From assembly GCF_004803915.1 (NCBI RefSeq), contig NZ_CP039396.1:2666001-2730000 (forward strand): 64,000 nt of DNA. Direction: 5' to 3'. This DNA comes from Duncaniella dubosii. GTDB taxonomy: Bacteria; Bacteroidota; Bacteroidia; Bacteroidales; Muribaculaceae. Positions 8,104-56,501 of this stretch are shown piece by piece; position 1 is the first letter of the stretch, and every line of letters begins with the position of its first letter. Position numbers and translations under genes: made by a program. The notes beneath the pieces are model-generated. The model saw nothing but the letters and a program-made list of their open reading frames with translations. It ran no database searches and was not told the DNA's origin.

Positions 8104-8156
8104 TACGCTTAGCGGGTTTATTTAGATAAACCAAATAGATGAAACAATAGTTGGCT

Positions 8157-36788: not shown

Positions 36789-36858
36789 GTACAACCATCC
36801 GCGATAGCATATTGACGAACTCCGAAAGAGAGTTGTATCTTTGTCGACAAAAAGAATC

Positions 36859-37275
36859 ATGGGTTATAACAAGTCTTTGTCCGATGTCTATTCAGAGACA
36901 TGGACGCGTTACAAGAATCAATGCGAGACAGACGGCTATATCGCATTGAACCGTTTCTGTGCCGGTACCGGCGTCAACGTCCAGCGGCTTTATGAGTGGC
37001 TTCGGCGCCGCAAAATCAGCATAAGCGATTATCAACGCAGTCTGCCGGAGAGACCGGATTCGTCGCGGGAAGGTGGCGGGCCGTTATTCCGGGAGGTTAA
37101 GGTTCCCGGTATTCAGGTTGCGGATGAGAGCCGGGATGTCGGTGCCACCAGTGTCGTGCGTGACGTGCACATCGAACTCGGTTGGGGCCGAGGCGTGAGT
37201 CTGGGAGAGATAAGCGCGGAGGGGCTGGCGCTTCTGGTGGATGTCATGACACGCAGGAGTGATGTGGAGTCTTGA
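36859..37275 (+). CDS. tnpA: IS66 accessory protein TnpA (copy 2)
   Basis: Identical to the copy 1 protein. The promoter (-7 box TATCTTTG at 36838-36845) and ATG at 36859 are the same relative to the element end. 17-nt overlap with tnpB. Confidence 0.83.
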   Translation: MGYNKSLSDVYSETWTRYKNQCETDGYIALNRFCAGTGVNVQRLYEWLRRRKISISDYQRSLPERPDSSREGGGPLFREVKVPGIQVADESRDVGATSVVRDVHIELGWGRGVSLGEISAEGLALLVDVMTRRSDVES

Positions 37276-37618
37276 GGCGGATATGCGGCTCTGGGTATGC
37301 CGGCAGCCGGTATCGATGCGCTACGGCATCCGGGGTCTGGCCCAGATGGTGTGGTCGTGGAAGGGGCATTCTCCGGCATCGGGCGATGTGTATGTGTTTT
37401 TCTCAAAGGACCGCAAGACCATGAAGGCGTTGAAATGGGATGGCGACGGATTTTTGATGTACACAAAAAGACTGTCGCGAGGCCGTTTCCGGGAGGTGCT
37501 CAAAAAGGGCGATGACGGCGTGCGCAGGCTCCAATGGGACGATTTCTATATGCTGATGAGGGGCCTCACGCCTGTGAAGGTGATGGTCGAAAATCGCTTC
37601 AGAATGGCCGTAAAATAA
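37259..37618 (+). CDS. tnpB: IS66 accessory protein TnpB (copy 2)
   Basis: Identical 119-residue IS66 Orf2 protein, coupled to tnpA by overlap and followed by a 78-bp gap before tnpC. The gap holds a second possible -7 box (TAACTTTA, just before tnpC), as in copy 1. Confidence 0.92.
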   Translation: MMWSLEADMRLWVCRQPVSMRYGIRGLAQMVWSWKGHSPASGDVYVFFSKDRKTMKALKWDGDGFLMYTKRLSRGRFREVLKKGDDGVRRLQWDDFYMLMRGLTPVKVMVENRFRMAVK

Positions 37619-37696
37619 GGCTTAATAATTTGTTAATCAAATAAATAAATGGCGTGGAAAGTTGCAAATGTCAGATATTTTTTGTAACTTTACACC

Positions 37697-39298
37697 ATGA
37701 AAAAGAACGAGTTGATAGAGTTTCTGCAACGTCAGATCGAGTTCCTTCAAGGGCGGCTCGACGAGGCGTTGGCCTCTGTCAGCTCGCTTACTTTATCCAA
37801 TGAAAAGCTGCAGTCGACCAACGAGAAGCTTGTGGCGACTGTAGATGAACTGCGCAAGCAAATGGCCTCAATGGAGGAGGCTATGAAAGGCAAAAGTGCG
37901 GAACTGAGCAAAGAGAAAGCCGCGCGTCAGGCAGTGCAGCGTCTGCAGGGCTCGCCGTCGGAGCGTCAGAAGAAACCGGTGACGACTCCTGCCACATCCG
38001 AAACTCGACAGCAGAAGCCAGAGAAGAAACGTACCAACAACGGCGCCAAAAGGAAGACGCATCCGGAGTGTGAGGTGGAGACCATTATAGTGGAGCCTGA
38101 CAGTCCGGACTTCAATCCCGAGGCGGCGACGTTTATCGGCGAGTGCGATGTCGTGCGCTACGTCATGGAGCCGATGCGCTTCAAAAAAATTATCTACAAG
38201 GTCAGAAAATACGTGCAGGACGAGAAAATATACAAAGGTTCCGCACCCGCCACACCGCTGCTTAACTCGCAGTATACATCTTCCTTCATAGCCGGACTCG
38301 CCGAGCTACGCTATCTCCACTGCATGCCACTTGAAAATGCTGTCGAATACTTCCGTGCCCACGGCTTCGACCTTGACAAAGGCACCGCACAGAAGCTCGT
38401 AAGTAAGGTAAGGGTACATCTGGAAAATCTATACAAGGCGCTGGGTCAGGCAATAGTCGCGGACAATTATATCTGCGGTGACGAGACCTATCAGAAAGTG
38501 CGGCTGCAGGTGGCAACTCCTTCGGGAAGAAAGATCAAGAAAGGCTACATATGGGTGTTCGTCGGCATGACAACCGGGCTTGTGTACTTCTTCTATGACG
38601 ACGGCTCCCGCTCGGCCGAAGTCTTCGAGCAACACATAAAAGGCTTCAACGGAGCCTTCCAGTGCGACTATTACTCGGGATACCGGCATATCGGAATCGG
38701 TGGGATGAGCGGGATAAAACGCTTGCCATGCCTGCAGCACATCAAGCGAAAGTTTCTCGATCTGAAAGACAATCCAAAGGCGCAGGAAATAGCAAAGCTC
38801 TTCGGACTCCTTTACCACTTCGAGCATCAGCACCGCATAGGCAAAGACGGATGGACGGCGGGAAAGCACCTTGAGTGGAGACAACGATACTCCAAGGTGA
38901 TGCTCGAGAAAATCCGCATGAGACTGACAGCAGTCAAAGACCGCATCGGCGTGCCACCCGACGACCCGCTGCTCGCCGCCACCGAACATGCACTCAAACA
39001 ATGGGACGAGATACCACGCATCTTTGCCTCACCCACCTACAGACTCGACAACAACGAAGTCGAGCGAATCAACCGCTACATATCCCTGACCCGTCGCCGA
39101 CTTACAATCGGCTCCCACTCCGGAGCCGAAGCCGCCGCCCTGTACCACTCTCTTGCGATCACCTGCCACCGCTGCGGAGTCAACGTCTTCGACTACTTCT
39201 GCGACATAATCGACCGATGTGCCGCATGGCCGCCAAACACCCCGATCGAAAAATACCGCGACCTGCTTCCCGACCGCTGGAAACTCTCACAAAAATAG
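37697..39298 (+). CDS. tnpC: IS66 transposase TnpC (copy 2)
   Basis: Identical to copy 1 TnpC: N-terminal coiled coil, Lys-rich linker and DDE core (DETYQKV, CDYYSGY, NNEVERINRY). With intact termini, tnpA and tnpB, this copy looks transposition-competent. Confidence 0.93.
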   Translation: MKKNELIEFLQRQIEFLQGRLDEALASVSSLTLSNEKLQSTNEKLVATVDELRKQMASMEEAMKGKSAELSKEKAARQAVQRLQGSPSERQKKPVTTPATSETRQQKPEKKRTNNGAKRKTHPECEVETIIVEPDSPDFNPEAATFIGECDVVRYVMEPMRFKKIIYKVRKYVQDEKIYKGSAPATPLLNSQYTSSFIAGLAELRYLHCMPLENAVEYFRAHGFDLDKGTAQKLVSKVRVHLENLYKALGQAIVADNYICGDETYQKVRLQVATPSGRKIKKGYIWVFVGMTTGLVYFFYDDGSRSAEVFEQHIKGFNGAFQCDYYSGYRHIGIGGMSGIKRLPCLQHIKRKFLDLKDNPKAQEIAKLFGLLYHFEHQHRIGKDGWTAGKHLEWRQRYSKVMLEKIRMRLTAVKDRIGVPPDDPLLAATEHALKQWDEIPRIFASPTYRLDNNEVERINRYISLTRRRLTIGSHSGAEAAALYHSLAITCHRCGVNVFDYFCDIIDRCAAWPPNTPIEKYRDLLPDRWKLSQK

Positions 39299-39358
39299 CC
39301 GCCCAAAACCTGGACGGCTATTTTTTTAAGCTATACCTGCTGTCGCGGACGGTTGTAC

Positions 39359-40053
39359 TTGACAATTTTTCCATTCGGAGCATTTTCCCAAGTAGTCAGC
39401 CCCATGTGCTCTTTATCTGCATTGGCTCGTTCCACAATCAGTTCCGCAGCAGTATGCCCGTGTATAGCATAATGCATTTTGTTCTGTACTTTCTTGAAAA
39501 ACAGACGAGTTGTCGGAGCATCCTTGTTATAGTCTATTGCCGTAGCATAAATGTCGGTCAGTTTCTGATAAAAACGACGCTCACTCAGCCTTATCTCCCT
39601 TATTTCGGCAAGCAAATGTTCAAAGTAGTCCTCACCGATGAAAGAGCCGTTTTCCATTCGCTTACGGTCAAGTACATATCCACGGATAGCAAACTGTCGG
39701 AGTACAAACGTACACCACTGCCGGAACTGAGTGGCACGAACAGAATTCACGCGATAACCTACACTGATGATGGCATCGAGATTATAGAATTGTGTATTAT
39801 AGGTTTTACCATCCTCAGCAGTATGTGCAAATTTTACACATACTGAATCTTGCAATAATTCAGATGACTCAAATATATTTTTAAGATGCTTTGACACAAC
39901 CGTTCTATCAATGTCAAAAAGCTGTGCTATAGCTTTCTGCGTTGCCCAAATGGTTTCATCTTTATACATTACTTGAATCCCATCCTCCTTGCCTTCAAGC
40001 ATAAAGATGAGGAATTCTGCTGTACTATTTCGTATTTCTATATTTTTTGTCAT
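39359..40053 (-). pseudogene. rhuM: RhuM-family protein, 5' part, split by IS66 copy 2
   Basis: N-terminal 231 residues of a RhuM-family protein. It shows an HTH-like region (ATQKAIAQLFDIDRTVVSKH), the block YNLDAIISVGYRVNS and RATQFRQW, and GHTAAELIVERANADKEHMG, all family-typical. Function of the family is not settled; members occur in pathogenicity and defence islands. It lies 74 bp after the last BREX-operon gene in the same direction, so it may once have been co-transcribed with it. Confidence 0.88.
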
Positions 40054-40127: not shown

Positions 40128-41177
40128 TTATACTAATTCAACCTTAATTCCCAGATTGAGTTTTTGTGAAATCTCGGTTATCTGGTTGAACTTGGTAATA
40201 GTGTCGGAACAAGTATTACATAACCAACCATTACCAATAGGTTTACACAGTTTTTTATAACGAGGTGCAGGATTTTTCAGTATTAAATTGTCGGCGCAAC
40301 AATTGATGCCCAATTCTCGCACTCTATCTACACCAGCATATTTTACAACCTCTACGAGGGCTTCCAATACCTTCATAGGACAGATAGTACGTCCATCTAG
40401 GAATGTAACTCGAATTCTATGACGCTCACTTTCCGATATTCCCATTATGGGTATTGCTTCCTCTGAATTATTTAAAGGGACAAGACTAATTTTTAATTCA
40501 AGCTCCAATTCATCGGATATTGTTTTAAGATCAAAACCCTTTGCTTTTGTTGAACTATTTGTCATTACGTACCACCCTCCACCTATAGGTTTTTGATATT
40601 TTGCATATTTAGAGTCAAGCGTTTGGGAGACGACAGCAACTCCGGCATGTGACAAACCAACCGAATCTACTTTTTCCGGATTAATCTCTTTTATGACAGC
40701 CACATATGTATCGCTGACGACGTTCCCCTGAAAAACTTTCCCATTAGGAAACTCAACTCTAAGTGTGTATGTCTTGCTACGCTTTGGAGTATCATGAGCA
40801 TCAGTCTGATTGCTTGTACTGGTAATAATTTCTAGATTATTAGAATCCATTTCCGATTCTTCAAGGATATCCTCGTTTGGGCAGTTACATTCATATTTAT
40901 CGCGAATAAATACTGTCGATCCTGATTTGCAAAATGAATAGTCAAGCTGTTTTTCACCATTGAATTGTAGGTTCATATCAACCGAGCATCTCAACCAAGA
41001 TATCTTACGGCTTAGAGTTTTCATCATTTCCGGAAACAGATTTTCTTTGAGATATTGCAATTCAATGTTGTTGATTTCTTTACGTATTTCTGCAACAACA
41101 TCCTCCCCGGACTCTTTCAGTCTGTCAAGGGATTCATATAGCTCTTTCAGCTTTGATATGTCGGTATTAGACGGCAT
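40128..41177 (-). CDS. BREX-linked protein with a tandem duplicated module, unknown function
   Basis: I cannot name the family. The 349 residues show an N-terminal coiled region (1-60) with a possible metal site CNCP near residue 98, then two related modules of about 97 residues, 136-233 and 253-349. Both share (L/I)RV-F-(N/D)GK/R near the start, a PEKVDSVGL / VDRVRELGI strand, a KPIG(G/N)GW(Y/L) core, and a closing helix-strand, L-LGIKVELV. Its start overlaps the brxL stop by one base (TAATG), so it is translated together with BrxL and likely belongs to the system. It may be a DNA- or modification-recognition part; that is speculation. Confidence 0.65.
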   Translation of the reverse strand: MPSNTDISKLKELYESLDRLKESGEDVVAEIRKEINNIELQYLKENLFPEMMKTLSRKISWLRCSVDMNLQFNGEKQLDYSFCKSGSTVFIRDKYECNCPNEDILEESEMDSNNLEIITSTSNQTDAHDTPKRSKTYTLRVEFPNGKVFQGNVVSDTYVAVIKEINPEKVDSVGLSHAGVAVVSQTLDSKYAKYQKPIGGGWYVMTNSSTKAKGFDLKTISDELELELKISLVPLNNSEEAIPIMGISESERHRIRVTFLDGRTICPMKVLEALVEVVKYAGVDRVRELGINCCADNLILKNPAPRYKKLCKPIGNGWLCNTCSDTITKFNQITEISQKLNLGIKVELV

Positions 41178-42607
41178 TACTTTAATTCAAATATTGGCAT
41201 GGGTTTGGAGAAAGAACTTTCACGGTCGATGTTAGCACATTGACGACGAATAATATCTCTACGATGAACAGCCGGTTTCAAACAATATGTATAAAACTCA
41301 GCAATATCCATATCCTCCTTGTTGAGAACGTGTGGAAACAGCAGCTTCAGATAGGCTGAGGCAATACGCTTTACGGCTTTCAGATGGCGCATATCTGCCC
41401 CCTCCGGAACTGCGATAGATTGATTTACAATTGTAGCATATTCCGTTGCAGTTCTGAGTTGGTGTAGGACCTCCGAGAAGAATTCTACGTTCAAAGTCCA
41501 GTCGCGTAGTGCCATGTCATTGGTAATGCGTGGAAGTAACCAACCTTCTATAAATCCGTGGAACCGGTCGAGAAGAGCAGACTCTTTAAAGGCTTCTGGA
41601 AGTTCTTCTACATAGTTATCGGACATTGGGAAACCATCTTCTGATAAGGGTATATTACCAAGAAGAATCAGGCCACACTCAGACATAAATTCGTAATTAT
41701 CAACGTTGGTCTTACCATATTCGAGATAGTTTTTAAGGATAGAACGCATCTCCATGGTATCAGTGAAAGTAATAGACTGAATCTCATCAAGTGCTACAAG
41801 GTCATGATGGAGCATAATTCCAGGTGTCTTGCGTGATTTGTCATAAAAGAGCTTGGCACGGGAAACTTTCCCCCCGCCAATGAGCCAAACGAACTTTGAC
41901 AAATTGCCGAAAACATAGGATTTACCAGTGCCCTTGGGTGCCAGTTCAATCAGGTTTAGACGAGGCTCGATGAACGGTAGTAAACGAGCCAGAAACTCCA
42001 GTTTTTGAGTTTTGCCCGAAAAGGCTGACGGGGTGTACTCCATAGCCGAAATAAGCACATCAATCCATTCATCGGTTGTAAATTTCTTACGGCACTCTCT
42101 GAACGAATTGAGATCGAGACGTTCGAGTGGACGGAAAGGCTTATATTTCGACATTTCAATATACCCCCTCTCCTTATCTTGCGGTGGAATATAAACAAGT
42201 TTGATAATTCCCCACTTTTCTCCGTCAATCAAATCATCGGGATTTTGGTCTACGATATGCTGTGGTATTTCCGTATCCGCCATCTTTATACCCATTTCCG
42301 GAATTTGGAACTGTGTCTTGTTTTTGGCGATGTTTGTGCTTATCTCAAAACGAGTAAGTAGAGTAATAACATCGCCTTGCATGAGGCGGCTGCGAATAGC
42401 ATTAGGATTAAGAGGTATGTGTTCATCGAGGAATCTAACAAGAGCATCACGACGTAGTTTGCCGTTCTGATCAATATGCGTGGCTATCAGATAGTCCTTG
42501 ACAAATGATGGCAGATTACGGCCAACGAATACTTCATTGTTGGCTGGATTCTTATAGACAGTAGATTCTCTGAAAACCAGCCTGATTTTATCACCAATTT
42601 CACTCAT
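41177..42607 (-). CDS. brxL: BREX protein BrxL, short form without Lon protease domain
   Basis: AAA+ ATPase of the BrxL family, a DNA-binding ring in BREX phage defence. The 476 residues show an N-terminal domain, Walker A APKGTGKS at 223-230, Walker B LVALDEIQ at 270-277 and LDRFHGFIEGW, an arginine-finger-like block. The well-studied type 1 BrxL is about 670 residues with a C-terminal Lon-like domain; that part is missing here, as in short homologues of other systems. It begins 2 nt after pglZ. ATG at 42607 is the only reasonable start. Confidence 0.87.
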   Translation of the reverse strand: MSEIGDKIRLVFRESTVYKNPANNEVFVGRNLPSFVKDYLIATHIDQNGKLRRDALVRFLDEHIPLNPNAIRSRLMQGDVITLLTRFEISTNIAKNKTQFQIPEMGIKMADTEIPQHIVDQNPDDLIDGEKWGIIKLVYIPPQDKERGYIEMSKYKPFRPLERLDLNSFRECRKKFTTDEWIDVLISAMEYTPSAFSGKTQKLEFLARLLPFIEPRLNLIELAPKGTGKSYVFGNLSKFVWLIGGGKVSRAKLFYDKSRKTPGIMLHHDLVALDEIQSITFTDTMEMRSILKNYLEYGKTNVDNYEFMSECGLILLGNIPLSEDGFPMSDNYVEELPEAFKESALLDRFHGFIEGWLLPRITNDMALRDWTLNVEFFSEVLHQLRTATEYATIVNQSIAVPEGADMRHLKAVKRIASAYLKLLFPHVLNKEDMDIAEFYTYCLKPAVHRRDIIRRQCANIDRESSFSKPMPIFELK

Positions 42608-42609
42608 AA

Positions 42610-45057
42610 TTAAAAGTCATCTAAATCAAGGCCTGAGCTAAAGCCCATACCAAAGAATTCAATTTCCAATTGTACAGGTTTCCCTCTGAAAGGAATAACC
42701 GTGATGTGATGTTTGCCCTCGGTTGCATTGGGGATGATACCCTCCCATTGCATACCATGGCGAATAAGAGTTATCTCTTGACCATTGAATATGGCCTTGG
42801 ATGACTGAGGCTCAGGAATAATCTTAAATACGACCTTCCTGTCAGAAATGGGCACCTTAGCCTCGACTGGTACAATCGTGTATTTGAGAGATTTCGAGGC
42901 ATCATCATTGGAAATAACAATGAATGGGACAAGCACTTCTTCAGGCGTGGCACCGCCATGTACCTCGTGTGTCGGTTTGACACCAAGCGACTGATGTCTG
43001 AGAGCGACTTTATATTTCTTATGGTCGCGTTCATTTTCGTGAACTACGAAATCAATGTCGCTGACCATCGTACAATCATCTGCAAGGGGGACATATCGGC
43101 CTTCATGCTTTGTTTTGGAATCAATCTTCAATGAGTCGCACTTGCGGGACATGGAGCTAAGTCCATGATCCGACACGATGGCGATTGTGTGTTTACCGAC
43201 TTTATTATCGTCAAGAATTTTGTAGATAACTGCTTTAACAGTTTCCAGCTCTGCAACTAGGGTCGTATATTTTTGATAGTGGCCTTCGTGTGCCAGTTCG
43301 TCAAGCGCATTGAGTTTAAAGATGAGATGGTTGCCAACATCAAATGAGTTAAGATGCGTGTTCGATGGAATAGTTGTGCGAGCGATTTGCGAAAGTATGG
43401 CTTCATAATTGCTCTGTGAGTTTTCAAGCAGGTAGTGAATGAATGGAATAAATTCTGCGCCGAGGCCGTCCACCCAATAGATTTTGTCTATGGGGTAAAC
43501 TTGACTATTCTGAATTTCATTCAGCAAATCGTGACTATTCTGGAACGAGTAGTACCAATTATAAAAAGATTCAGCACTCGCGTTGCGTTCCTCTACAATT
43601 TCCTTGAGTTCTTCGGTGTAATTATCAACTATCTTTGCCCTACGGAATCGTTCTAGATAATCAGCTGCCCACGAGGCTGTAACTTTGGTCGCAACAGATT
43701 CATACGCAGTAAGGTACCCGGCAAGGTCAGGATAAAATTCTTTAAGGTGTGAAAGACCGAAGTCTTTCTCTGCCATAAGAACATACCAGCCGAGGAACAA
43801 GATTTTCTCAAAGTCAAAGATGGAAGTACAAAGTCGTTTTGCTTGAGAAAGGCTATCGTCCTTTTGAGCTATTTCAATGATATGATTCTTGACCCATAAC
43901 TGATGTTCCTCAGGAACAAGTGTGCGGAACAATTCGCACTGAGACTGCATAATATATTTGCGGCTGTCGAAGTTTTGAAGACGTTCCGCATTAGTCATAT
44001 AGAATATCCGCTCGGTAAGATTGACAAACAATGTGTTAGCAATCTTAAAGTCGTCGATCTCATGAAGGACATCGCACATATAACCCGACAGTTCATCCCC
44101 TTTGTAAGCAAGTGCGTAAGCTTTAAGAAGCCAACGCTCATAAGCCAGTGTTTCATTTTTTGCCCAAAGCAAAAGAATATCGTTTGCAGTTATCGTTTTT
44201 CGATTAAATAGGTCTTCAACATAGCTCGGAAAGTCGAACAGCTGAGCGGCCTTCTTGCCGATGTTTTGAAGCATTGCGTCCCAATATTCCAATTCTGATT
44301 CCTTATATTCTATGGGTAATGATATTTCAAGGAAGTCGGTTATAAACTTATGCGAGTTATCTACAGACTGGAATGTGAATATTGAGTCCGGCTTAGCATT
44401 CGGCCAGCGGTTTAGAATTGGTGATGCACCACACAAGATTTTATCTTTAGGTGCCTGTTTCTTCCAGAAACTAAGCCAATCACGCATGGTAGGCAGTGAG
44501 CAAATATTAAGCTTGTCAGGAATAGTATAGTTTTTGAATTTTGAGACGTATACCATTACCTTATCGTCCTTAGGCGTATAATATTGCCAAATGGGGGCGC
44601 TCTCTTCAATGCGTCCAAAGGATTTGAGGAAGTCTGTAAACCGGTTATGCAGCCCGATGATGGGAATATAAATTCGCTTTTGAGGATGTGCAATATCTTC
44701 AGATAAGATAATATCATTAAAGAAACCCTTGAACTCGTCCTCTTTGAAAAATCGAGCAAGTTCAGAGAAGGGTGTTACGATGCTAGAGACCTTCAAGTTC
44801 CGTACGGCATCGCTCAGAGTGTCGATGTCAATGGTTTTGTCCGGGCCAAACGCAAGCTTTTCAAGATCGAACTTTTCCACACCAAGTTCCAAAACAAGAA
44901 ACTTGGTTAGTTCTCGAAAAGCATCAAAGTTATTCAACATAATGAAGCGTACACAATATCGTTGCGCTAGCACATCATATGACTTTACGTCAACGCTAAT
45001 GGCCTCCTTAAGGTCATCAAGCGAGTGAAATGCTATTACTTTGTCGGTTGCATCCAT
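42610..45057 (-). CDS. pglZ: BREX protein PglZ, alkaline-phosphatase superfamily
   Basis: Core BREX protein present in all BREX types. The 815 residues have a helical N-terminal half, then the phosphatase-like fold with metal-binding motifs WVDGLG at 528-533, IVSDHG at 627-632 and the HGGATPEEVLVPF block at 700-712, and a C-terminal beta domain. Metal ligands appear intact. It starts 2 nt downstream of the original brxC stop at 45060-45062, so translation was coupled to brxC; the IS in brxC may now reduce its expression. Confidence 0.9.
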   Translation of the reverse strand: MDATDKVIAFHSLDDLKEAISVDVKSYDVLAQRYCVRFIMLNNFDAFRELTKFLVLELGVEKFDLEKLAFGPDKTIDIDTLSDAVRNLKVSSIVTPFSELARFFKEDEFKGFFNDIILSEDIAHPQKRIYIPIIGLHNRFTDFLKSFGRIEESAPIWQYYTPKDDKVMVYVSKFKNYTIPDKLNICSLPTMRDWLSFWKKQAPKDKILCGASPILNRWPNAKPDSIFTFQSVDNSHKFITDFLEISLPIEYKESELEYWDAMLQNIGKKAAQLFDFPSYVEDLFNRKTITANDILLLWAKNETLAYERWLLKAYALAYKGDELSGYMCDVLHEIDDFKIANTLFVNLTERIFYMTNAERLQNFDSRKYIMQSQCELFRTLVPEEHQLWVKNHIIEIAQKDDSLSQAKRLCTSIFDFEKILFLGWYVLMAEKDFGLSHLKEFYPDLAGYLTAYESVATKVTASWAADYLERFRRAKIVDNYTEELKEIVEERNASAESFYNWYYSFQNSHDLLNEIQNSQVYPIDKIYWVDGLGAEFIPFIHYLLENSQSNYEAILSQIARTTIPSNTHLNSFDVGNHLIFKLNALDELAHEGHYQKYTTLVAELETVKAVIYKILDDNKVGKHTIAIVSDHGLSSMSRKCDSLKIDSKTKHEGRYVPLADDCTMVSDIDFVVHENERDHKKYKVALRHQSLGVKPTHEVHGGATPEEVLVPFIVISNDDASKSLKYTIVPVEAKVPISDRKVVFKIIPEPQSSKAIFNGQEITLIRHGMQWEGIIPNATEGKHHITVIPFRGKPVQLEIEFFGMGFSSGLDLDDF

Positions 45058-45059
45058 TT

Positions 45060-45317
45060 TTATAGTCGATTGAAAAAATCTGCGGTTTCAGGATACTGTT
45101 CGAGAAGATTAAGTATGGCCATTTGCCACATGGTGTTTGGCATATTTGTGGTCTTGATTTTCTCTTTAGCCTGCTTAACGATGTCCGTCTTAGAGGTCTT
45201 ATTTTCATTGTTAGAGTCTCCATCATTACCACTGTTGTTGCCGTCTTCACCATTGTCGCTGTCCCCATCGCCTTCTCCATTCTGTCCGCCGCTACCGGAG
45301 GTTTTACGGATATAGAA
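45060..45317 (-). pseudogene. brxC: BrxC C-terminal tail, separated by IS4-family insertion
   Basis: The last 80-odd codons of brxC, beyond the insertion. After removing the IS and one TATAGAA copy the frame runs from QFY into IRKTSGSGGQ, a Gly/Asn/Asp/Ser-rich linker of about 35 residues, and a helical end (MWQMAILNLLEQYPETADFF) to the stop at 45060. It has no start of its own. The insertion falls where the linker begins. Confidence 0.8.
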
Positions 45318-46755
45318 TTATTGCTGTCCGATAAAACTCAAATAGCGCAATAAAGTATGGCTCGAACGCTGATTTTACGGTGTTCGAGTCTTCTTTTTTA
45401 CCTTACAAGCCCCCTCAGTCAAACAATGACGGTTCGGGAGGCGCTCCGGAGGCCTCGGAAAGGATGATTTCCCACTCTTTTTCCGGGTTGTTAAACAGGC
45501 TGTTGAAGTCAACGTAGTACATCAGGGTAATTCTGACCATTGTTGCCAGCCCGGAGAAGCTCCACTGGCGTTTCAGCCCCTTCTGCATAACCATCAGCAG
45601 TAGATTGGCGATTAGTGTGATCCAGATCTGGATCTTGATGGCATTGGCGCTCTCGCCATAGAAGTATTTAAGTGGAAAGTTTTGTTTCATCTGCTTGAAC
45701 AGCAGCTCAATTTCCCATCTCTGTCGGTATATCGCGATGATTTCCTCCGGGTCGGACTCCATATCGTTGGTCAGCAGCGATATCAGTTTGCGCTTCTTGA
45801 CATCCACATAAGTGATTATGCGTGATTTATGTCGAATGACCTCTCCGCCTTTAACCTGCTTTACAAACTCCACTTGCTGTATCCTGACCTCCATCAGTCC
45901 GTCAGGAGTCTGATACATAGTGTCCGACAATATGCTGTATTTCAGGTTCTTCTTCATCTTGGTGACGTATGTTACGCCACGCTCCGTCAGTTGTTGGAAC
46001 TTCTCATAGTCGATGTATGCGCGGTCCATTGCCATTATGTCGCCTTTACTCAATGTTGTTGGCTTGAGCATGAATGAGTCGTTTGTAGCCGCTGATGTGA
46101 ACTTTATATCCGACGGCACACCTTCGTTGGCATGTATGACGGTATGAACCTTGATTCCGCCTTTCTTTTTTCCGGTCTTTGGATGGCGTCCGACTCCCTT
46201 GAACAGCAGGTTGGAGAACAGAGTAATAGTCGTGGAGTCGATAATCTGCAGCCGTTTCATCCATTTTGGAGTCTTGCGGCTGTGGCTGTCCGAGGAAAGA
46301 ACGTGGCGGTAAGTGGCATATAAATCGCGATATATAGCCTCAAATATAGCTTCGGGGCGCCTCTTGTTGGCATCCGCGAGTGTGCTGCGCCCGATTTTGA
46401 ATGTAATACCTATATGAGACAGTTTACGCGTCTCGGCAAGCAAACTGGCTGTTATCTCACGCAATGAGTCGAATCGCATTATCACCGCATAGAGCATTAC
46501 CACCAGATGAATCCAGCAGTTAAACCGTTTGGTATATCTCTCTCCTCCGTATTCGCGGCTAAACTGAAGAATTTTCGACTTGTCAAGCAGTTTTATTACC
46601 TGACCATAGAGCGGCTGTCCGCTAAAATGACTACTTTTGGGCATAGTTTAGAATATGTTTTGACCAACACAAACTAAACTAAAAGGACTGACTCCTGCAA
46701 TAGGTGCCAGTCCTAATTTTGTTTTGCCTCAAAAAGTTTTATCGGACAGCAATAA
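45318..46755 (-). mobile_element. IS4-family insertion sequence, copy A, in brxC
   Basis: 1438-bp element with perfect terminal inverted repeats of 21 bp (tips TTATTGCTGTCC), flanked by the 7-bp duplication TATAGAA at 45311-45317 and 46756-46762. It carries one transposase read in the direction of the BREX operon. Copy B at 62698 differs at several bases. Confidence 0.92.
45415..46644 (-). CDS. IS4-family transposase (copy A)
   Basis: 409-residue DDE transposase: an N-terminal DUF4372-like domain (residues 1-75), a DDE_Tnp_1 core with IIDSTTITLF, VIHANEGVPSD and AMDRAYIDYEKF, and the YREK-like block YRQRWEIELLFKQMKQN carrying the catalytic glutamate. It appears intact and complete. The family within IS4 was not resolved. 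Confidence 0.92.
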   Translation of the reverse strand: MPKSSHFSGQPLYGQVIKLLDKSKILQFSREYGGERYTKRFNCWIHLVVMLYAVIMRFDSLREITASLLAETRKLSHIGITFKIGRSTLADANKRRPEAIFEAIYRDLYATYRHVLSSDSHSRKTPKWMKRLQIIDSTTITLFSNLLFKGVGRHPKTGKKKGGIKVHTVIHANEGVPSDIKFTSAATNDSFMLKPTTLSKGDIMAMDRAYIDYEKFQQLTERGVTYVTKMKKNLKYSILSDTMYQTPDGLMEVRIQQVEFVKQVKGGEVIRHKSRIITYVDVKKRKLISLLTNDMESDPEEIIAIYRQRWEIELLFKQMKQNFPLKYFYGESANAIKIQIWITLIANLLLMVMQKGLKRQWSFSGLATMVRITLMYYVDFNSLFNNPEKEWEIILSEASGAPPEPSLFD

Positions 46756-47715
46756 TATAGAATTGGTAAATGGCTTTTTCAACATCGGACTCCTTACGAA
46801 ATGCGATTTCGCTGGGAAGTTGCGAGAGCTTTTCAAGCATCTCGTTCCACCATGCTTTCTCGATTTTGATACCTTCTATACTGTCAACGAAGTTTACAAA
46901 TCCTTTTTCGTAATTATCAACATTGGTGATAAGTATAAGAAGCTCCACATGATTGTTTTTGATGTTGCGATAAATCGCTTTAATTTTCTCGACAGGAGGA
47001 GCCTCCTGAGCAAAGATTGCAATAAGAGATTGTATCGCATTCTTCAAATCTTCCGATAAACTGGGAATATGGACAAGAGTCCATAGAGGTTGTTTTGCAT
47101 ATAGCTTGCAGAATTCCTGAATGTACCATTTAGCATTGTCGAGACTCTTGACATCATCTGGTTTGGCCTTAATTGTATGGCCGAGATCGAATGTATCATA
47201 AAGTAATTTGGTAAGGTCACTTTCCTCCTTCGAGCCAAAACGGAGAAGCATTTTGGAGTTTGAGTCAGACTTACCGTCTTTCCACATCTTGAATAAGTCG
47301 GTCACCATGGTGCAAAGTGCCTCGTCAGAGATGGGCTGGGATATAGTTGTTTGGAACAACTCAGACTTATATTTGCGGAGAGCGTATGCTATAGCTGCAC
47401 AATTCAGCATGGAAGTAAACATGCCATAGGGTGGCTTTATGAACGAAGCGAACACTACAGGCAAACTGAATTTATCAGCGTATTCCTTACGTGCTTTTTC
47501 CATGCATTTTTCCACATGATGGCAGATTTCTACCAGCCACGAATGCCCGTTAAGAGCATTTTCAGAAAGCACTCCATCAGATTTAACAAGAGTATTTCCG
47601 TTTTCCTCAAAGAGATATTTTAGCGGCGAAGCACTACTGCCGTGCGATATTAGCTGATCACGGTTTTGCGCCTGCAGTATTTGTTGGATAACTTTCGGAC
47701 AGTTACCGTCTTTGG
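46739..47715 (-). pseudogene. brxC: BrxC, third fragment (after frameshift, before IS)
   Basis: C-terminal region of BrxC in a frame shifted from the middle fragment. The frame is open from about 47715 (SKDGNCPKVIQQILQAQ) through SWLVEICHHVEKCMEKA to KAIYQFYI, then ends on a stop supplied by the IS. It is helical and has no recognised motif. Adding one A to the A4 run at 47716-47719 (plus strand) links it to the middle fragment. Confidence 0.82.
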
Positions 47716-49437
47716 AAAACGCATTGTCTCAAATCCCATGTTATAAATCTTAGCACAGAGCTTATTGTTAAGAAGGTCTGGAAGTTGATCAATAGTGCCT
47801 TCACGATAAGACTCACCATTGAAATATACATTATAGGTGTTGTGCCGAAGTTGTGTAATCCACTTAGAAACAAAAGCATGAGCCGCTTTCTCAAATTCCT
47901 TAGCCTCAGATTCATTGAAATGACTACGAGCAACTTTAGATGTGGCCACGGCATCAATGAATTTGTTATAAGCCTGTATAGAGAATGTTTCTTCAGCCAG
48001 TACAATAACCAGATTTTCAAATTCCTTTGAGAAATTGTTGAGCAGTGTCGATTTTATTTCACGGTTTTCTTCATCAAGAGCGAGGAAGAACGCAACGTGC
48101 ATATAGTTGGGCTTGTCAGATGTGAACTTATTCAACCTACTGCGAAGGAGTTGCTCGCTATCCTCGCATGAGAAGAACTGGACGGCAGTTTCTCGCTTAA
48201 CAGAAACGCCTATTTGGAACAACCCACCGAGGTCTTCTTTACTGACAGTGTCATAATCAAGAACAGAAATAGACGTCTTATAGGCCGACTGTTCGTCCTG
48301 CCGACGTTTGTTCATCTCATTCTGATTGTAGGAAGTGCCGCGGATTTTGAACTCGCCAAAGATGTCGCGGACTACAATTTTGTTCTCGTCGAGATAGTTC
48401 AAGATGTCGATAACTTTACTGTGAGCACGATCACCAGCAAACATACAACGGAGTACGTTGTCGTTTGGGGTCATCAGCTCGATTGACTTCTTGAACTTGG
48501 GTGATAATGCGTTGAGCAGCAAAATCGCTTTAAAGACTCGCAAATGGTCTTCACCTTGAGCACGCACTTTGTCTTCAAACGAATTGAATAGCCCAGTGAA
48601 CGTTACGCTAGCGGGGTCTGCATCAAATGTGGGATAAAAGAAATCCCACAGAGTGTCAGCTGTCATCAGCATATCCACATCATAGCAATTTTCGTTATTG
48701 AGGAATGCCTCGAAGCCAGAGTCGCCATCGTGCATGAACTTAATGACGCTTCGATTTGAAGAACCTATGAAGTTTGATACTTCCGAGCAAAGGAAAGCTG
48801 TATAAGGATGCATTGGGAGGAGCTCCTTGATATGGCCTACCTGTTCGGCATTGCCATGTGTCAGGAAGTCAAGTACTTCTCCGATTTTTGGGAGTACAAT
48901 ATTTTTGAACGCCTTAAACTGCTCATTCGATTCGATATCTGGAATAGTAAAGCTGTGACGCATAATCAAATATGTACTCAGACTATCCATCTTATAATCA
49001 ATTTCATCGAACCGATCACTCATCTTCGTGATGTCCTTCGCCTTGTTGTCGGTGCTTTGCGCCTCTACACGGTGCGAGATAAGGAACAGAAATATGTTGT
49101 GATGCTGTGATTTCTCAGCGATATTTTGGAGAAGGTTGATTCGATCGCTTTTCAATGTATCCATCACAGATGTGAATTCATCCCAGAAGATTATAAGTCC
49201 GTTAGCAATACTGCGCTTCTCTATTTCCTGTTCAACTTCAGCAAGCCATTCGGCAATCGCCGTTTGCTCAAAAACTGAGCCAATGGTTTCACGGATGGCA
49301 TTTTCAATGGTAATATACATTCCGGGATTGTAGTTCTTAAGGAATGTAATGGCTTCATCAGCGGTATTAATGCTGTCGGAAAGGTCTTTTGCATTGGGGA
49401 TGACTTCTTCCTCAAAAATGCGACGATGCCCCTCAAT
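47650..49437 (-). pseudogene. brxC: BrxC, middle fragment
   Basis: Continues the N-terminal frame after a single TGA codon, beginning IEGHRRIFEEEVIPNAKDL, so the gene was once continuous. It contains the Walker B strand LIIFWDEFTSV and the following SHR sensor-like LFLISHRVEAQ of the BrxC/PglY P-loop family. The frame fails at the T-run near 47716 and ends in unrelated residues. Reinitiation at the ATG of MYITIENA (49320) is possible but would lack Walker A. Confidence 0.85.
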
Positions 49438-49917
49438 TCAGTTTATGGCGGCTGTGAAATCAGAATTAACAACAAAGTCTGGCACAACTGCTTTGACAGC
49501 CTTCGACACCTCGCGCTGCAACGACAGCGTGAAGCGTGGAATGTCATATGCCTGTTGCACCCCCTTAAGTGTTACGGCGAAGTAACGTTTGTTTTGGCGA
49601 AGGTTCCTTACTTGGGATTTTAGCGCTGGATCATTGATGTTTTCTATATATGTTTTAATTGAATCAAAGTCATCACAAAGCAGGTGCTTGACCACTGCAC
49701 TTGCGTGACTTTTACCGGTACCGAAAGTACCGCGTACCCAGATGCTTCTTCTTTTACTTATCTCGCTGCTGGTAATTGCGGTGAGCGAGCGTTGGAGCAT
49801 CTCATTGAACTGAGCAGTTGGGATGAATGATTGCCACGAAGAAACTCCTTCTTCCAGTATGTCGTATACCGGAAGGAAGTTCTGTAAGTGAATGAAGTCT
49901 GAATATTTTGTTGCCAT
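49438..49917 (-). pseudogene. brxC: BrxC, N-terminal fragment with Walker A
   Basis: Start of the large BREX ATPase. VRGTFGTGKSH near residue 61-71 is the Walker A loop, followed by a helical region to VNSDFTAAIN and an in-frame TGA (49438-49440). The ATG at 49917 is preferred over the TTG at 49932. Joining all four parts and removing the lesions gives an open frame of exactly 1138 codons, the size of full BrxC (about 1100-1200). BrxC is essential in studied BREX systems, so loss would inactivate defence. Confidence 0.86.
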
Positions 49918-49932
49918 GAGTTTACAGGTCAA

Positions 49933-52470
49933 TTATTTCAACATTAGTTTGATGATGTCTTCTGAGGTGAGATCCTCACGAAGGATAATATTGTCAAGCC
50001 CCATTTTCAGTTCGGCGCGGAGCACTTGATTCTGCTCCTGCTCAAGAGAACGGAGAGTAGCCTCGAAATCTTCACGCTCAATACCGAACTGGCGAACGAT
50101 GCCTTCTGTCTGACCGGGATTGTAGAACTCTGAAACGGTCAGTAAGTAACGACCATTTTTCTCTGCATAGCGATATAGAGAGTACGCAGTGGCTACGAGC
50201 GAAAGATCATTGTGTGCCTTGCGAATAACCCCAGGTTTACGGTCAACCGTAGTAGGTATAGCAATAGCGGATCCTAGCGGACTCTCCTTAAATGTATTCA
50301 GCAGAGAGTTTAATGGATTTTTCAATGTACGGTCTTTCAAATCGGGATAAGAGTCTTGAATCATAATTTCAAGTTCCTGCTTTGTGATGTTACGATCGTA
50401 AGGAACTGTTGATGAGAACCATCTTGCGATTTCTGAGTTTTCTGTAAGGTTAACCCAGATAATATCCCATACAGTATTGGCATTGTCTGCAAAAGTGTCA
50501 GCCATTCTTTTGCCAATCGGAGAAATAAATTTGTCTGATTGGTTGAGAATCCCTGCTTCACGAATCCAGTTTGTGAAAGGAGGAATCTGATAACGTGGAT
50601 TTAGACCATGGTTATCGTTGTCAAAAAAAGTCTCATATGTGGCAAAATATTTTTTTAGCCATATTTCACGAAGGCCCATGCCATCGTTGTAGCGATTAAT
50701 ACCTGATTTAACGGATTGCATTTTATTTATTTTTTCTCCGCTCGAGATGCTGACCGAACTTGCGGAAAGGCAACCCTTGCCATCAAACTCGATACATTTC
50801 AAGCAATGTATACATTTGTTTTTGTCAATTTTAACTGTTGGAACAACAGAGAGAGCCCCAGTCGGGCACTCAACTTCGCAAACTTCGCAATGGATGCAAT
50901 AAGTTGCTTTATAGAGCACCCTTTTTATGTGACTCATAAATACAACATCGTTCTCCGTTCCATTCACTTCGATGATTGAAATATTTTGCGAACCATAGGT
51001 TATTTTGAAGTTAACCATTTTTTTTCTGTATTTGAGAGTCCCAGAAAAAAAATCATTTTCAAAGTTTCCTTGAATTTCACCCAATACTCCAAACCAAGTT
51101 AAAATATCTTCTCTGGGATTGGAAATAGTTGCTTTAAAGTCCTGTCCTTCTTCTATGAACGAAATATCAGAGTGGCATTCAACTGTACGACCGCCAGCTC
51201 TTTCTTTCCATTTACCCAGCTTGATATAGTTGTCAATGCCATGTACTTTAGACTTTTCTAATGACAAACGAATACTATTAATAAAGGGCTGAATAGAGTT
51301 CGGATATACTTTGGATGCTATATTCTCGCTCCATTTTGACGAATAAGGACAAATAACACAGCCAACTCTTGAAAACCCTAAACGATAAGCAGAGTTAAAC
51401 GGAAGTCCTTTAAGGAGTATATACAGATACGTTTCTGTGGCATTCCATGATATAATTGGGCTAACATTAATGATATTATTATGCTTTGCATTTTTGCCAA
51501 TTCTGCTTCTGTTAGCTCTGTTAACACTTTCTTCGTTACGAACCCCATCAAAAAGTATTGCAGAAGGCTGTTTATCTCCACCGCAAATTTCTTTCAGAAG
51601 GCGAGCTAATGGAGCAGACTTCATAATGCTACAACACCAGCGTAAAACACGGCTTGGTGCCCCCATCCTATCCCAATACAACATCAACTCTTGATGGTTC
51701 TTAGATACGTAGAAACGTAAATTGGGATACTTCTCATGATAAAAATCCTTCACCTCATCGTATAAATCAAGCGAAGGAGGTAATTCATAACCAGTGTCTG
51801 AATAGATAACGACCAAATCTTCACTGGGAATTACTCTTGTAACAAGGTCTAGAATTACTTGTGAATCTTTACCTCCAGAGAAGGAGCAAACGAAGATGTC
51901 TATTTTACTCTTTAGTAAGGCTGATTTTCCAAGTTTCTCTATGTCCTGAATAGGCATAACGTCAAAGCTATCGCAAGACTCTTTTACCACAGCGTATTCT
52001 GTTTTAGTTCTTTTAGATAACTTTGAAGCTAATTCCTGGAAATCAAAATCAGGATTTACTTCTTTTGCTTTCTCTGCAGCCTTATATTTACGATACTCCC
52101 CATCAATAAATTCCATCGCTTCATGTTCGATAAGGAAAAGGGGATCTTCATTGGCTTTATTCAAAGCCGACATATTGACAGGCTCTATATCAAGTTGAGT
52201 GTTGGCAACAAAAGTAAAAATATGTGATTCAAACAGGTCTCCTCCATTGGTTTCGAGAACCATTTCACCTTTATAGAAATAGCGACGATCACAAGCCCAT
52301 AAAAGAGGTTCTTCACAATGAGGATACCTCCAACCTATTTGGTCGAGTCCAAGAAAGTCAAGTTCTTCCCAAAACACGGGACGTGGACAAACATTTAGAG
52401 CCTCACCAGACGGTGGTGCCATCGTTAGACGAACTCCATTATTTTCTTTATCCCATATAACCTTAAACAT
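49933..52470 (-). CDS. brxP: BREX type 4 protein BrxP: PAPS-reductase/DndC-like protein with ferredoxin domain
   Basis: PP-loop ATP pyrophosphatase related to PAPS reductase and to DndC of DNA phosphorothioation. Numbering from ATG 52470: SFSGGKDS near residue 197 is the PP-loop; WCCSIMK (about 279) and GCVICPY (about 371) offer an iron-sulfur cysteine set. Residues 525-568 are a two-cluster ferredoxin (CIHCEVCEVECP, then CIHCLKCIEFDGKGC). The last 270 residues are a helical domain of DUF4007 type by appearance. 845 residues. By family it would use ATP, electrons and sulfur to modify DNA, probably the backbone; no direct proof for BrxP. It begins 6 nt after the HTH gene's stop. Confidence 0.87.
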   Translation of the reverse strand: MFKVIWDKENNGVRLTMAPPSGEALNVCPRPVFWEELDFLGLDQIGWRYPHCEEPLLWACDRRYFYKGEMVLETNGGDLFESHIFTFVANTQLDIEPVNMSALNKANEDPLFLIEHEAMEFIDGEYRKYKAAEKAKEVNPDFDFQELASKLSKRTKTEYAVVKESCDSFDVMPIQDIEKLGKSALLKSKIDIFVCSFSGGKDSQVILDLVTRVIPSEDLVVIYSDTGYELPPSLDLYDEVKDFYHEKYPNLRFYVSKNHQELMLYWDRMGAPSRVLRWCCSIMKSAPLARLLKEICGGDKQPSAILFDGVRNEESVNRANRSRIGKNAKHNNIINVSPIISWNATETYLYILLKGLPFNSAYRLGFSRVGCVICPYSSKWSENIASKVYPNSIQPFINSIRLSLEKSKVHGIDNYIKLGKWKERAGGRTVECHSDISFIEEGQDFKATISNPREDILTWFGVLGEIQGNFENDFFSGTLKYRKKMVNFKITYGSQNISIIEVNGTENDVVFMSHIKRVLYKATYCIHCEVCEVECPTGALSVVPTVKIDKNKCIHCLKCIEFDGKGCLSASSVSISSGEKINKMQSVKSGINRYNDGMGLREIWLKKYFATYETFFDNDNHGLNPRYQIPPFTNWIREAGILNQSDKFISPIGKRMADTFADNANTVWDIIWVNLTENSEIARWFSSTVPYDRNITKQELEIMIQDSYPDLKDRTLKNPLNSLLNTFKESPLGSAIAIPTTVDRKPGVIRKAHNDLSLVATAYSLYRYAEKNGRYLLTVSEFYNPGQTEGIVRQFGIEREDFEATLRSLEQEQNQVLRAELKMGLDNIILREDLTSEDIIKLMLK

Positions 52471-52476
52471 ACGCAA

Positions 52477-52695
52477 TTACTTAGTTGGACATAATAATTC
52501 TCTCACATCCACATCAAGGATGTGAGCTATTTCTTGAAGTTGTGTAACTGACGGCTGAATTTTATTATTACACCATCGCGATATTGTGGTTGCATTTTTA
52601 CCAACAGCGACACTAAGCTGTTTAGCTGAAATTTGTTTTTCTGCCAATACCGCTTTTATTCGGTTTACCGGAATAGGTCTATCTTCAGTTTTCAT
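52477..52695 (-). CDS. XRE-family HTH regulator of the BREX operon
   Basis: 72-residue Cro/CI-type protein: RIKAVLAEKQISAKQLSVAV, then GKNATTISRWCNNKIQPSV forms the HTH, and LQEIAHILDVDVRELL completes the fold. ATG at 52695 is used; earlier codons precede the predicted transcript. It is the first gene of the BREX operon, 6 nt before brxP, with a palindrome in its leader, so it most likely represses its own operon. It is much smaller than the BrxR/WYL regulators of type 1 systems. Confidence 0.85.
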   Translation of the reverse strand: MKTEDRPIPVNRIKAVLAEKQISAKQLSVAVGKNATTISRWCNNKIQPSVTQLQEIAHILDVDVRELLCPTK

Positions 52696-52699
52696 TTTA

Positions 52700-52730
52700 T
52701 TACAACTTCTTGTAAGAAACTGCAAAGATA
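52700..52730 (-). promoter_or_regulatory. BREX operon promoter and operator
   Basis: On the minus strand, -7 box TATCTTTG at 52723-52730 with a weak -33 site, followed at 52700-52715 by the 6-4-6 palindrome TTACAA-GAAG-TTGTAA, which covers the predicted start of transcription just before the regulator ATG. This layout suits autorepression by the HTH protein. Confidence 0.6.
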
Positions 52731-53389: not shown

Positions 53390-54652
53390 TTAAATACTAC
53401 CATATCGTTCATCCAATACTCCTGAAAACATATCCATCTCTCTTTTGGAAATACTCAATCGTGTTGCCAGTTCTCGCCATCCTTTCACGGCTTCAATCAC
53501 TTCTGAAATAATCTTTTCTGCCGTTTTTGGGTTAAGCATATAATCTTCGCTGGCATCCAGCAAAATACTCAGCTCTGCTTTATTAGAAGTTGATGAAACA
53601 AGCAAACTTTGATATTCATTCAAAGTTGGATTCATATCGTATGCAGGAGAAAGCGTCCAACCTTTTGCAGTCAAAAGAAAACCGTGATTACGGAAATGGT
53701 CATCGCTATTACCAATGCAGATATTGAAAGCCACACGGCGATAGAGTTCCTGCAGATTCCCTTCTACATTCGTACAGTTCTGGATTATGAAATCGATTAT
53801 ATCCAGATAACCGTGCCCTGTAGTTGCATTATCGCCGTCATTAAGACCCAATAAAGTCATGGCAGAAGCAAAATGAATCCGTTTCCCCTCTTGGGTTCTG
53901 TCGAAGCGTTGCGAAAGCAACGTATGATATTTCTCTCCTGTTGCCAGCACTTTGGTCTTTGCGGCATTTATACCGGATTTTGCAGCAAGAAGATGGCTGA
54001 AATGCTCCCAAAGTCCTGCATCGTAATCATCTTTGCGAGATGGGAACTTGGCTATACAAAGCGTTTTATCCGTGTCTATCACACTGGCTTTAGGTCTTGC
54101 GCCACCCAGTGAAGAACCGGGCTGCACGAGTTGGGCAACCCATTTCCTGTCAGGCAGGACATTCCCCTCTTCGCTTTTCTCGATTTCCGCACTGGCTGCA
54201 ATCAACTCCCTTATATCCGTCAGAGGTGGGATTTTCAACGACTCACTTACATTTATAAATCCTCCGTCTTTTGACTCCTTGAAACGGAAAGCACCCATTC
54301 GGGAAAAGTCATCGATACCAGTCAAAAAATCGAAAGAAGACAGTCTCCGTACCGGTCGCTTCTCTTCCATCGCAGCAATCTGCTCACGTCGCAACAATAG
54401 CGTTCGCCCCCAACGATCCGGCAGGGCATCCGAGAAACATCCGAATATATCTTTCTCCGGTTGCGTATATTGCTGTCCCGGATAATTATTCAGGTCATCA
54501 CTCAGGAACAAATCTCCATGTTTCTTCAGCCATTCATCGCTGAAGGTAAAGCAATAGCTGTCCGAGCCACGAAGAGATTCATAGCCTAACTCGCCAACGA
54601 GTTCTGTTTCCTTGAGCCAATCAAAATCGGCATAAACACATAGCGTCTTCAT
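53390..54652 (-). CDS. hipA: HipA-family toxin kinase
   Basis: Serine/threonine kinase toxin of type II toxin-antitoxin systems, by family phosphorylating translation factors such as glutamyl-tRNA synthetase. At 420 residues it has the usual layout: an N-terminal HipA_N domain, SSLGGARPKASV (the Gly-rich loop), SQRFDR, the catalytic NSDDHFRNHGFLL with Asp and His, and LSPAYDMNPT, the metal motif. All key residues appear present. It starts 3 nt after hipB. Confidence 0.92.
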   Translation of the reverse strand: MKTLCVYADFDWLKETELVGELGYESLRGSDSYCFTFSDEWLKKHGDLFLSDDLNNYPGQQYTQPEKDIFGCFSDALPDRWGRTLLLRREQIAAMEEKRPVRRLSSFDFLTGIDDFSRMGAFRFKESKDGGFINVSESLKIPPLTDIRELIAASAEIEKSEEGNVLPDRKWVAQLVQPGSSLGGARPKASVIDTDKTLCIAKFPSRKDDYDAGLWEHFSHLLAAKSGINAAKTKVLATGEKYHTLLSQRFDRTQEGKRIHFASAMTLLGLNDGDNATTGHGYLDIIDFIIQNCTNVEGNLQELYRRVAFNICIGNSDDHFRNHGFLLTAKGWTLSPAYDMNPTLNEYQSLLVSSTSNKAELSILLDASEDYMLNPKTAEKIISEVIEAVKGWRELATRLSISKREMDMFSGVLDERYGSI

Positions 54653-54655
54653 CGT

Positions 54656-54976
54656 TTACTCCTTTTTTGAAGCACGTTCCCTCGTCTTCAAACTCAAATC
54701 CTGCAAGGTTTTTCCCAATTTGTCTTCTTTGGCCAACCACAGAATATCATCATCAAGCTGTAAAGCATACAGCACACGCAAATAGATTCCGATTGCTACG
54801 GTCGGTGCACCTTTCTCTATTCGGGACACAGTCAATGGAGAGCAAGTGGCACGTTCCGCCACCTGAGCCACACTCAGATTCCTGCGCAAGCGAGCCAGTT
54901 TAATCTGCTCTCCCACAACTGACATTTTCTGCTCCAACTTTCGGGGCAACTTGGTTCCCATTGTATTTTTAGTCAT
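54656..54976 (-). CDS. hipB: HipB-family antitoxin, XRE HTH
   Basis: 106-residue DNA-binding antitoxin: IKLARLRRNLSVAQVAERAT, then CSPLTVSRIEKG forms the HTH, followed by a helical dimer region and a basic tail. ATG at 54976 is preferred over an upstream TTG. Together with hipA it forms an operon and would autorepress; an imperfect palindrome overlaps the promoter -7 box. Confidence 0.88.
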   Translation of the reverse strand: MTKNTMGTKLPRKLEQKMSVVGEQIKLARLRRNLSVAQVAERATCSPLTVSRIEKGAPTVAIGIYLRVLYALQLDDDILWLAKEDKLGKTLQDLSLKTRERASKKE

Positions 54977-54998
54977 AATCAACTTATCATATAATATG

Positions 54999-55174: not shown

Positions 55175-56488
55175 TCACTCGATGGGCTTCACCAATTCTT
55201 CATCCTGCCATTCCGCAAGAGAAACAATCGCATTGTATTGCTCCAAAGTCAAATCCGATTCACTATCGTCTGAGCATTCGTATTCCCACGGCAGTTCGTA
55301 AACAGTACCTTCTTCCTGATAACCCATATAGTTATGGTACGTATTAGGAATTAACCGCACATAATCTTCTTCGCGCAGAATCATCAAAAGTTTCTCGGCA
55401 TCACGAATCAATAATGGCACTCCGACCTTATATAGAGCAGTGGCAACCTCAATGGCCAGCTCGACATTTGCCGAGTAGCTATTAGAAACAACTATCATCC
55501 AACCCTGCTGTGGCACCTTCGATGCAATGATGTTCAAGCGCGAAAACCCCAACTCGCCATAGTGGTCTGTTGCAAACCGTATAAAATCCTCCGGGCTGTC
55601 AATGTCATAGAGTTTATCTACATCTACGAATTTCACTCGTTTGTAATAGACTACATCTCGCAGTTCTTCCGGGATATTCGGTTGTTCTTCGCAGAGACGG
55701 TTTCCAATACTTCGCTTCCGGTAGTATGCCTCATAAGCCTCGTTAGCGATACGATAATATGTGCAATATTGCCGAATGGTCATAGTCTTCAGATGAAGTG
55801 CGGAATGTTCCTTCGCAGAATCCTCCAAAGCCTTTATCGCTGTTTCCCGATCTTCCACATTAATCTTAAAGCTCGGAGCTATCCTATTGAGTTCCTTTCG
55901 TGCAATCCGCCCAATCCGTTGCTGGCACGGCAGATTGTGCGCCACATAGTCGTTGAACCCATCAGGATTTGCAACAATAACATCAACCAGCCTCTGCAAA
56001 TAGCAGAAAAGTCGGGCAAGGGAATCCTGATACCATCCGTCATCTGATTCTCCGTCGGCACAAGAGGAGCGATTTGTTATGACGAAATGCGCATGTTTTC
56101 GGTCTGTAATGCGAATCGACCGGAACTCTTCGTATTTATAAGAGGTAACATGAAACCACTGCGTTTCCGTTGGATTGAACGCAAGCCAGTCCGCAAGGAA
56201 GGCTTCTTTGCTTTGATACTCTCCCGAAGCAATCAGTTCCTCGACATCACCCCATTCCTCTGGAGTGGGTCGCGGTACCACAATGTAGAAGCCACGGTAT
56301 TCATCATCCCCCATTACGGTAAGTTGCTCGAACTGATGCTGAATTTCAACTAGACGTTCCAGCATATTGCCGCTAACTGTGATTTCACAATGACGCATTT
56401 CACCCATTGCTTCTATATGCGAAGCGTTCAAGCCAACCTCATTTGCCAAATCAATAAAGAGTTTTCTATCTATTATTCTTTCATCCAT
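55175..56488 (-). CDS. Unknown 437-residue protein
   Basis: No recognised family. The protein is soluble, acidic, rich in Tyr and Glu, with no P-loop or metal motif. Its C-terminal third (FSRLNIIASKVPQQGWMIVV) looks like an alternating alpha/beta domain. It ends a leftward cluster with two metallophosphoesterases, starting 13 bp after the first, so it is likely co-transcribed. Confidence 0.55.
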   Translation of the reverse strand: MDERIIDRKLFIDLANEVGLNASHIEAMGEMRHCEITVSGNMLERLVEIQHQFEQLTVMGDDEYRGFYIVVPRPTPEEWGDVEELIASGEYQSKEAFLADWLAFNPTETQWFHVTSYKYEEFRSIRITDRKHAHFVITNRSSCADGESDDGWYQDSLARLFCYLQRLVDVIVANPDGFNDYVAHNLPCQQRIGRIARKELNRIAPSFKINVEDRETAIKALEDSAKEHSALHLKTMTIRQYCTYYRIANEAYEAYYRKRSIGNRLCEEQPNIPEELRDVVYYKRVKFVDVDKLYDIDSPEDFIRFATDHYGELGFSRLNIIASKVPQQGWMIVVSNSYSANVELAIEVATALYKVGVPLLIRDAEKLLMILREEDYVRLIPNTYHNYMGYQEEGTVYELPWEYECSDDSESDLTLEQYNAIVSLAEWQDEELVKPIE

Positions 56489-56501
56489 TGCTTAATGATC
56501 A

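Follow-up and report, generated by a model that had tools for sequence, protein, structure and literature searches.

We analyzed a 64,000-nucleotide stretch of the genome of Duncaniella dubosii, which belongs to a gut-associated bacterial group (assembly GCF_004803915.1, contig NZ_CP039396.1, positions 2,666,001 to 2,730,000; hereafter the window), which carries a type 4 bacteriophage exclusion (BREX) operon ending in an unannotated gene, here called the tail gene. The genome comprises 3.69 Mb in 5 contigs. Between positions 40128 and 52695, six genes on the reverse strand form a single leftward operon in the order helix-turn-helix (HTH) regulator, brxP, brxC, pglZ, brxL and tail gene (Table 1), with junctions, read from the sequence, of 6, 15, 2, 2 and -1 bp and a G+C content of 0.417 versus 0.458 for the window. 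A preliminary description, made from the sequence alone, had proposed one leftward operon with gaps or overlaps of a few bases; order, strand and junctions agree with this, but brxC is not a single open gene. For the HTH gene, an alternative frame from GTG 52752 is likewise open.

Table 1. Features of the BREX type 4 operon and its tail gene (window positions)
Feature	Position	Strand	Likely start	Evidence and remarks
Candidate promoter box TATCTTTG, ahead of HTH gene	52723..52730	-		Sequence; fits the Bacteroides -7 box consensus TAnnTTTG
HTH (Cro/C1-type) regulator, first gene	52477..52695	-	52695	Pfam HTH_3, E 1e-10
BrxP	49933..52470	-	52470	PADLOC BrxP (PDLC02510), 815 bits, model positions 1-775 of 779
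brxC pseudogene	45060..49917	-	49917	In-frame TGA 49438-49440, frameshift within about 47680-47722, insertion; PADLOC BrxC on three pieces
IS4-family element inside brxC, 1436 bp	45319..46754	-		Transposase 45415-46644, NCBIfam transpos_IS4_1 7.3e-62
PglZ, type 4 kind, open frame	42610..45057	-	45057	NCBIfam NF033445 BREX_PglZ_4, 627 bits (cut-off 140)
BrxL, open frame	41177..42607	-	42607	PADLOC BrxL PDLC02505, 645 bits, 1.6e-194; TIGR02688, 438 bits (cut-off 329)
Tail protein, 349 amino acids, unannotated	40128..41177	-	41177	Start overlaps BrxL stop by 1 base (TAATG)
SeqA-C-like domain copy 1, residues 133-238	40464..40781	-		
SeqA-C-like domain copy 2, residues 250-349	40131..40430	-		Profile match, model

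The profile scores place the operon genes far beyond chance, and the operon is BREX type 4 by descent. BrxP, the type 4 PglZ, BrxL and the brxC-homologous sequence all match their models, which bears out the initial filing under this type, and the profile check suggested at that time confirmed PglZ and the BrxC pieces as well. As in other type 4 systems, the four core genes stand in order, PglX is lacking and the PAPS-reductase is joined to ferredoxin motifs: BrxP carries the PP-loop PAPS-reductase motif SGGKDS (residue 200 of the listed open reading frame), CC/CxxC cysteines and 4Fe-4S ferredoxin motifs, it matches Pfam PAPS_reduct (2.8e-31) and Fer4, and its C-terminal part matches a second BrxP model (PDLC02511, 55 bits). 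The BREX4 loci L061 and L195 likewise have an HTH gene ahead of brxP. By contrast, the window differs in having a brxC broken in three ways, an added SeqA-like tail gene and no cysteine desulfurase gene in the operon. Scans with PADLOC, Pfam and NCBIfam, which for PglX were confined to the operon, detected no PglX and no methyltransferase among the operon proteins, in line with the earlier claim; the sole methyltransferase-like match was a weak one of 18.4 bits, between PADLOC MTase_II and the PAPS-reductase part of BrxP. An absence of PglZ, considered because PF08665 is silent in the window, was rejected, since the dedicated type 4 model NF033445 matches strongly. PF08665 matches elsewhere in the genome only, at one other locus with a 515-amino-acid frame, perhaps a PorX-type protein. 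A plasmid search with the pglZ-brxL DNA gave no match.

Compared to the Ssp and Dnd phosphorothioation systems, BrxP matches SspD with 49.5 bits and DndC with 30-32 bits, and a BrxC piece matches SspC with 48 bits (PADLOC), whereas the operon carries PglZ and BrxL where Ssp and Dnd have their own restriction genes. The earlier label “DndC-like” is thus loose, given 815 bits with the BrxP model versus the scores with the two DndC models.

The preliminary description had treated brxC as one intact gene and overlooked its three lesions. We aligned it piecewise to the intact BrxC (1139 amino acids) of genome G111 (locus L065). Residues 1-744 of this reference align to window positions 49917-47680, crossing the in-frame TGA; residues 739-1067 follow in another frame at 47722-46742; and residues 1071-1132 align to 45248-45075, beyond the IS4-family element. 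The ends of this element are 20-bp perfect inverted repeats, and it is flanked by a 9-bp target duplication, ATTCTATAT, at 45310-45318 and 46755-46763, which favours a true insertion over a mis-assembly. Sequencing errors could account for the stop and the frameshift taken alone; even without these two, the insertion would remove the C-terminus of BrxC. As BrxP, PglZ, BrxL and the tail gene still have open frames, the loss looks recent. The window copy probably neither marks DNA nor defends.

Sulfur marking is a published property of type 4 BREX. A passage in PMC11931770, citing Yuan et al., counts brxPCZL (BREX type 4) as one of three known families of phosphorothioate-making genes; sections of PMC12839542 treat type 4 as phosphorothioation-based BREX and relate BrxC, the PAPS-reductase and DUF4007 to SspC, SspD and SspB, respectively; and the term type IV BREX PT systems is used in part of PMC12707154. 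The initial proposal of self/non-self marking by sulfur chemistry on DNA therefore agrees with published type 4 work but is not new, and marking by the window copy itself is unlikely because its brxC is broken. In an intact type 4 locus, a cysteine desulfurase would likely hand sulfur to BrxP, which would place it onto the DNA backbone under BrxC, and PglZ and BrxL would act against unmarked DNA. According to a passage in PMC12839542, a cysteine desulfurase occurs in 255 of 457 taxa. Outside the operon, six PF00266 members lie above cut-off in the genome (best C1:583772, E 1.6e-145), so that a housekeeping cysteine desulfurase is a possible donor.

The tail protein consists of a helical N-terminus followed by two SeqA-C-like domains, and thus contains a duplicated domain. 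It had no family match at E 0.001 in the PADLOC, Pfam and NCBIfam scans, but is a member of the family described by our profile A6, which matches it at 6.7e-30 and 1.9e-22. A sequence search for relatives among solved structures gave none that was convincing (best E 0.71), and a Pfam search with 10 proteins, up to E 10, returned no SeqA family match. The best predicted fold match of the C-terminal domain is nevertheless SeqA, the negative modulator of replication initiation in Gammaproteobacteria. The two are similar in the DNA-contact loop, T-N-T-N-T-x-x-K (hhalign pairwise E 4.4e-6, with 0 of 500 shuffles as high), and both have a helical N-terminus before a linker. In contrast to SeqA, the window protein has two domain copies and partly changed contact residues, and the family as a whole differs by its Bacteroidales host range and defence-gene neighbours. 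At the GATC-contact residues of SeqA, N stands at the position of Asn150 in 6 of 45 domains and at that of Asn152 in 18 of 45; because these two are not kept, we filed the family as SeqA-like and not as SeqA. A common fold and descent are supported but not proven, and the family is probably DNA-binding. In L051, a protein encoded behind an AIPR gene (7468-8136) also has SeqA-like domains in tandem but lacks the N-terminus typical of the family; its first domain groups with the second copy of the window protein (support 0.80).

Besides BREX4, the tail gene holds the same position behind 25 other gene groups, and in 37 of 64 loci it overlaps the upstream partner or sits within 15 bp of it. The named partners (restriction enzymes, BREX4, AIPR, TIR, SIR2, Schlafen and AbiGi) are effector-type genes, several others have no known domain, and in L050 an HSDR_N domain is fused to the SeqA-like domain. 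The protein is under strong selection, as its ratio of nonsynonymous to synonymous substitution rates (dN/dS) is about 0.04: we sampled 60 of 138 pairs, and the 53 usable ones gave a median of 0.041 (range 0.013-0.170). Broken tail genes, with early stops or shortened, occur at L115 10001, L145 10001 and L100 169 (3, 120 and 181 amino acids). Apart from Yuan et al. 2026 (Nat Commun 17:1717), which may mention the tail gene, the literature that we searched describes no SeqA-like protein encoded in defence operons; in one paper that names both SeqA and BREX, SeqA serves as a microscopy reporter.

Next, we looked at other BREX4 loci, counting only those whose NF033445 match exceeds the cut-off. 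This model was matched by 85 of the 393 genomes in the order sample, 6 of them above cut-off, and by 21 of the 149 in the family sample. Of the latter, 2 exceeded the cut-off, one being G000 again, which gives seven genomes in total. The sequence past BrxL could be evaluated in five, after leaving out G016, whose sequence stops 284 bp after BrxL, and G363, which is without that side. Two of the five, the window genome and G111, carry a tail gene, and none was detected in G106, G098 and G879 by tblastn of 75 tail proteins (E 0.01) over 2.4 to 6.3 kb past BrxL. The tail domain of G111, a metagenome bin of 86% completeness, shares 74% identity with its counterpart in L086 and 27% with both window copies, so that different members of the tail family seem to have been recruited by these two BREX4 loci. 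Two BREX4 loci carry a gene of 144-148 amino acids between brxP and brxC (L061 4891-5325; L195 9737-10183), which is missing in the window, and in G879 an OLD/AbiEii-type ATPase gene (L195 529-2343) lies behind BrxL, at the tail-gene position.

Considering the locus as a whole, we give an even chance to the reading that it is a phosphorothioate-based type 4 BREX operon which has lost brxC, is probably inactive and ends in a gene for a SeqA-like DNA-binding protein. This protein would dimerise via its helical N-terminus; through its SeqA-C-like domain it would, like SeqA, bind DNA of a given state (newly replicated or half-modified); and binding would direct or restrain whichever effector is made with it. 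Extending this, we tentatively propose, as a somewhat improbable idea, that Bacteroidales defence operons share an interchangeable SeqA-like protein that reads the state of DNA and connects unrelated effectors to a common cue, such as newly replicated or half-modified DNA, the gene also serving as a hinge for swaps of defence genes. A coupling of reader domain and effector is known from type IV modification-dependent restriction, which the HSDR_N fusion resembles, whereas the tail family is usually a separate gene common to many unrelated effectors and its reading of modified DNA is putative. The novelty lies in finding this family, whose member here the preliminary description had not explored, behind unrelated defence genes; its role there we infer. 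With one unnamed family behind two dozen unrelated gene groups, many of them anti-phage, bacterial immunity may have an input or control layer in common, for which the SeqA-like fold offers a concrete candidate ligand, namely hemimethylated or phosphorothioated DNA. As several partners have no known domain, the tail gene might also mark unrecognised Bacteroidales defence genes.

An alternative is that the tail protein regulates the operon through its own promoter and travels with toxic defence genes that need restraint. The frequent overlap or close spacing would fit a feedback product, and the effector-type partners and the SeqA-like fold also speak for such a role; we consider it unlikely, as the window operon is already headed by an HTH regulator and the HSDR_N fusion better fits an adaptor. 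It is quite unlikely that the operon is an ordinary type 4 BREX with an unrelated neighbour at its end: the core genes do match known models and three of the five evaluable loci are without the tail gene, yet the TAATG overlap with BrxL, the presence of another, different tail gene at this position in the second BREX4 locus and the same tail position behind so many other gene groups all argue against coincidence.

The tail gene could also be a recombination anchor, or hitchhiking cassette, that swaps neighbouring defence genes, its product being of little import to the partner. We compared 190 pairs of 20 close, hand-chosen tail copies, for the tail gene alone. The stretch of matching DNA stops within 31 bp of the start codon in 175 pairs, no more than 20 bp beyond the stop codon in 176, and at both these limits in 164, extending further on one or both sides in the remaining pairs. 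Two trios (L075/L077/L078 and L084/L143/L085) resemble an exchange of flanks across the gene. We hold this exchange loosely, because all trio members are metagenome bins in which a near-repeat of 640 bp can mis-join contigs, and L075 extends just 150 bases past the tail gene. The low dN/dS, moreover, demands a selected protein, and we regard a mere anchor as very unlikely.

Several features adjoin the operon. Downstream, a RhuM-family protein (39331-40053, reverse strand, 240 amino acids) matches positions 1-234 of a 342-position model; its end meets the start of a candidate IS66-type set (36841-39298, identified by eye), by which it may have been truncated. Just upstream lie a HipA-like kinase (HipA_C 2.4e-47) and an HTH partner (53390-54982, reverse strand), followed by a putative metallophosphoesterase and a protein of 437 amino acids (55175-57844). 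Both of the latter share 73% identity with genes that flank the BREX4 operon in G106 (L061 2-1991), a genome from another family of the same order, which, judged by this identity, shares its BREX4 neighbourhood with the window.
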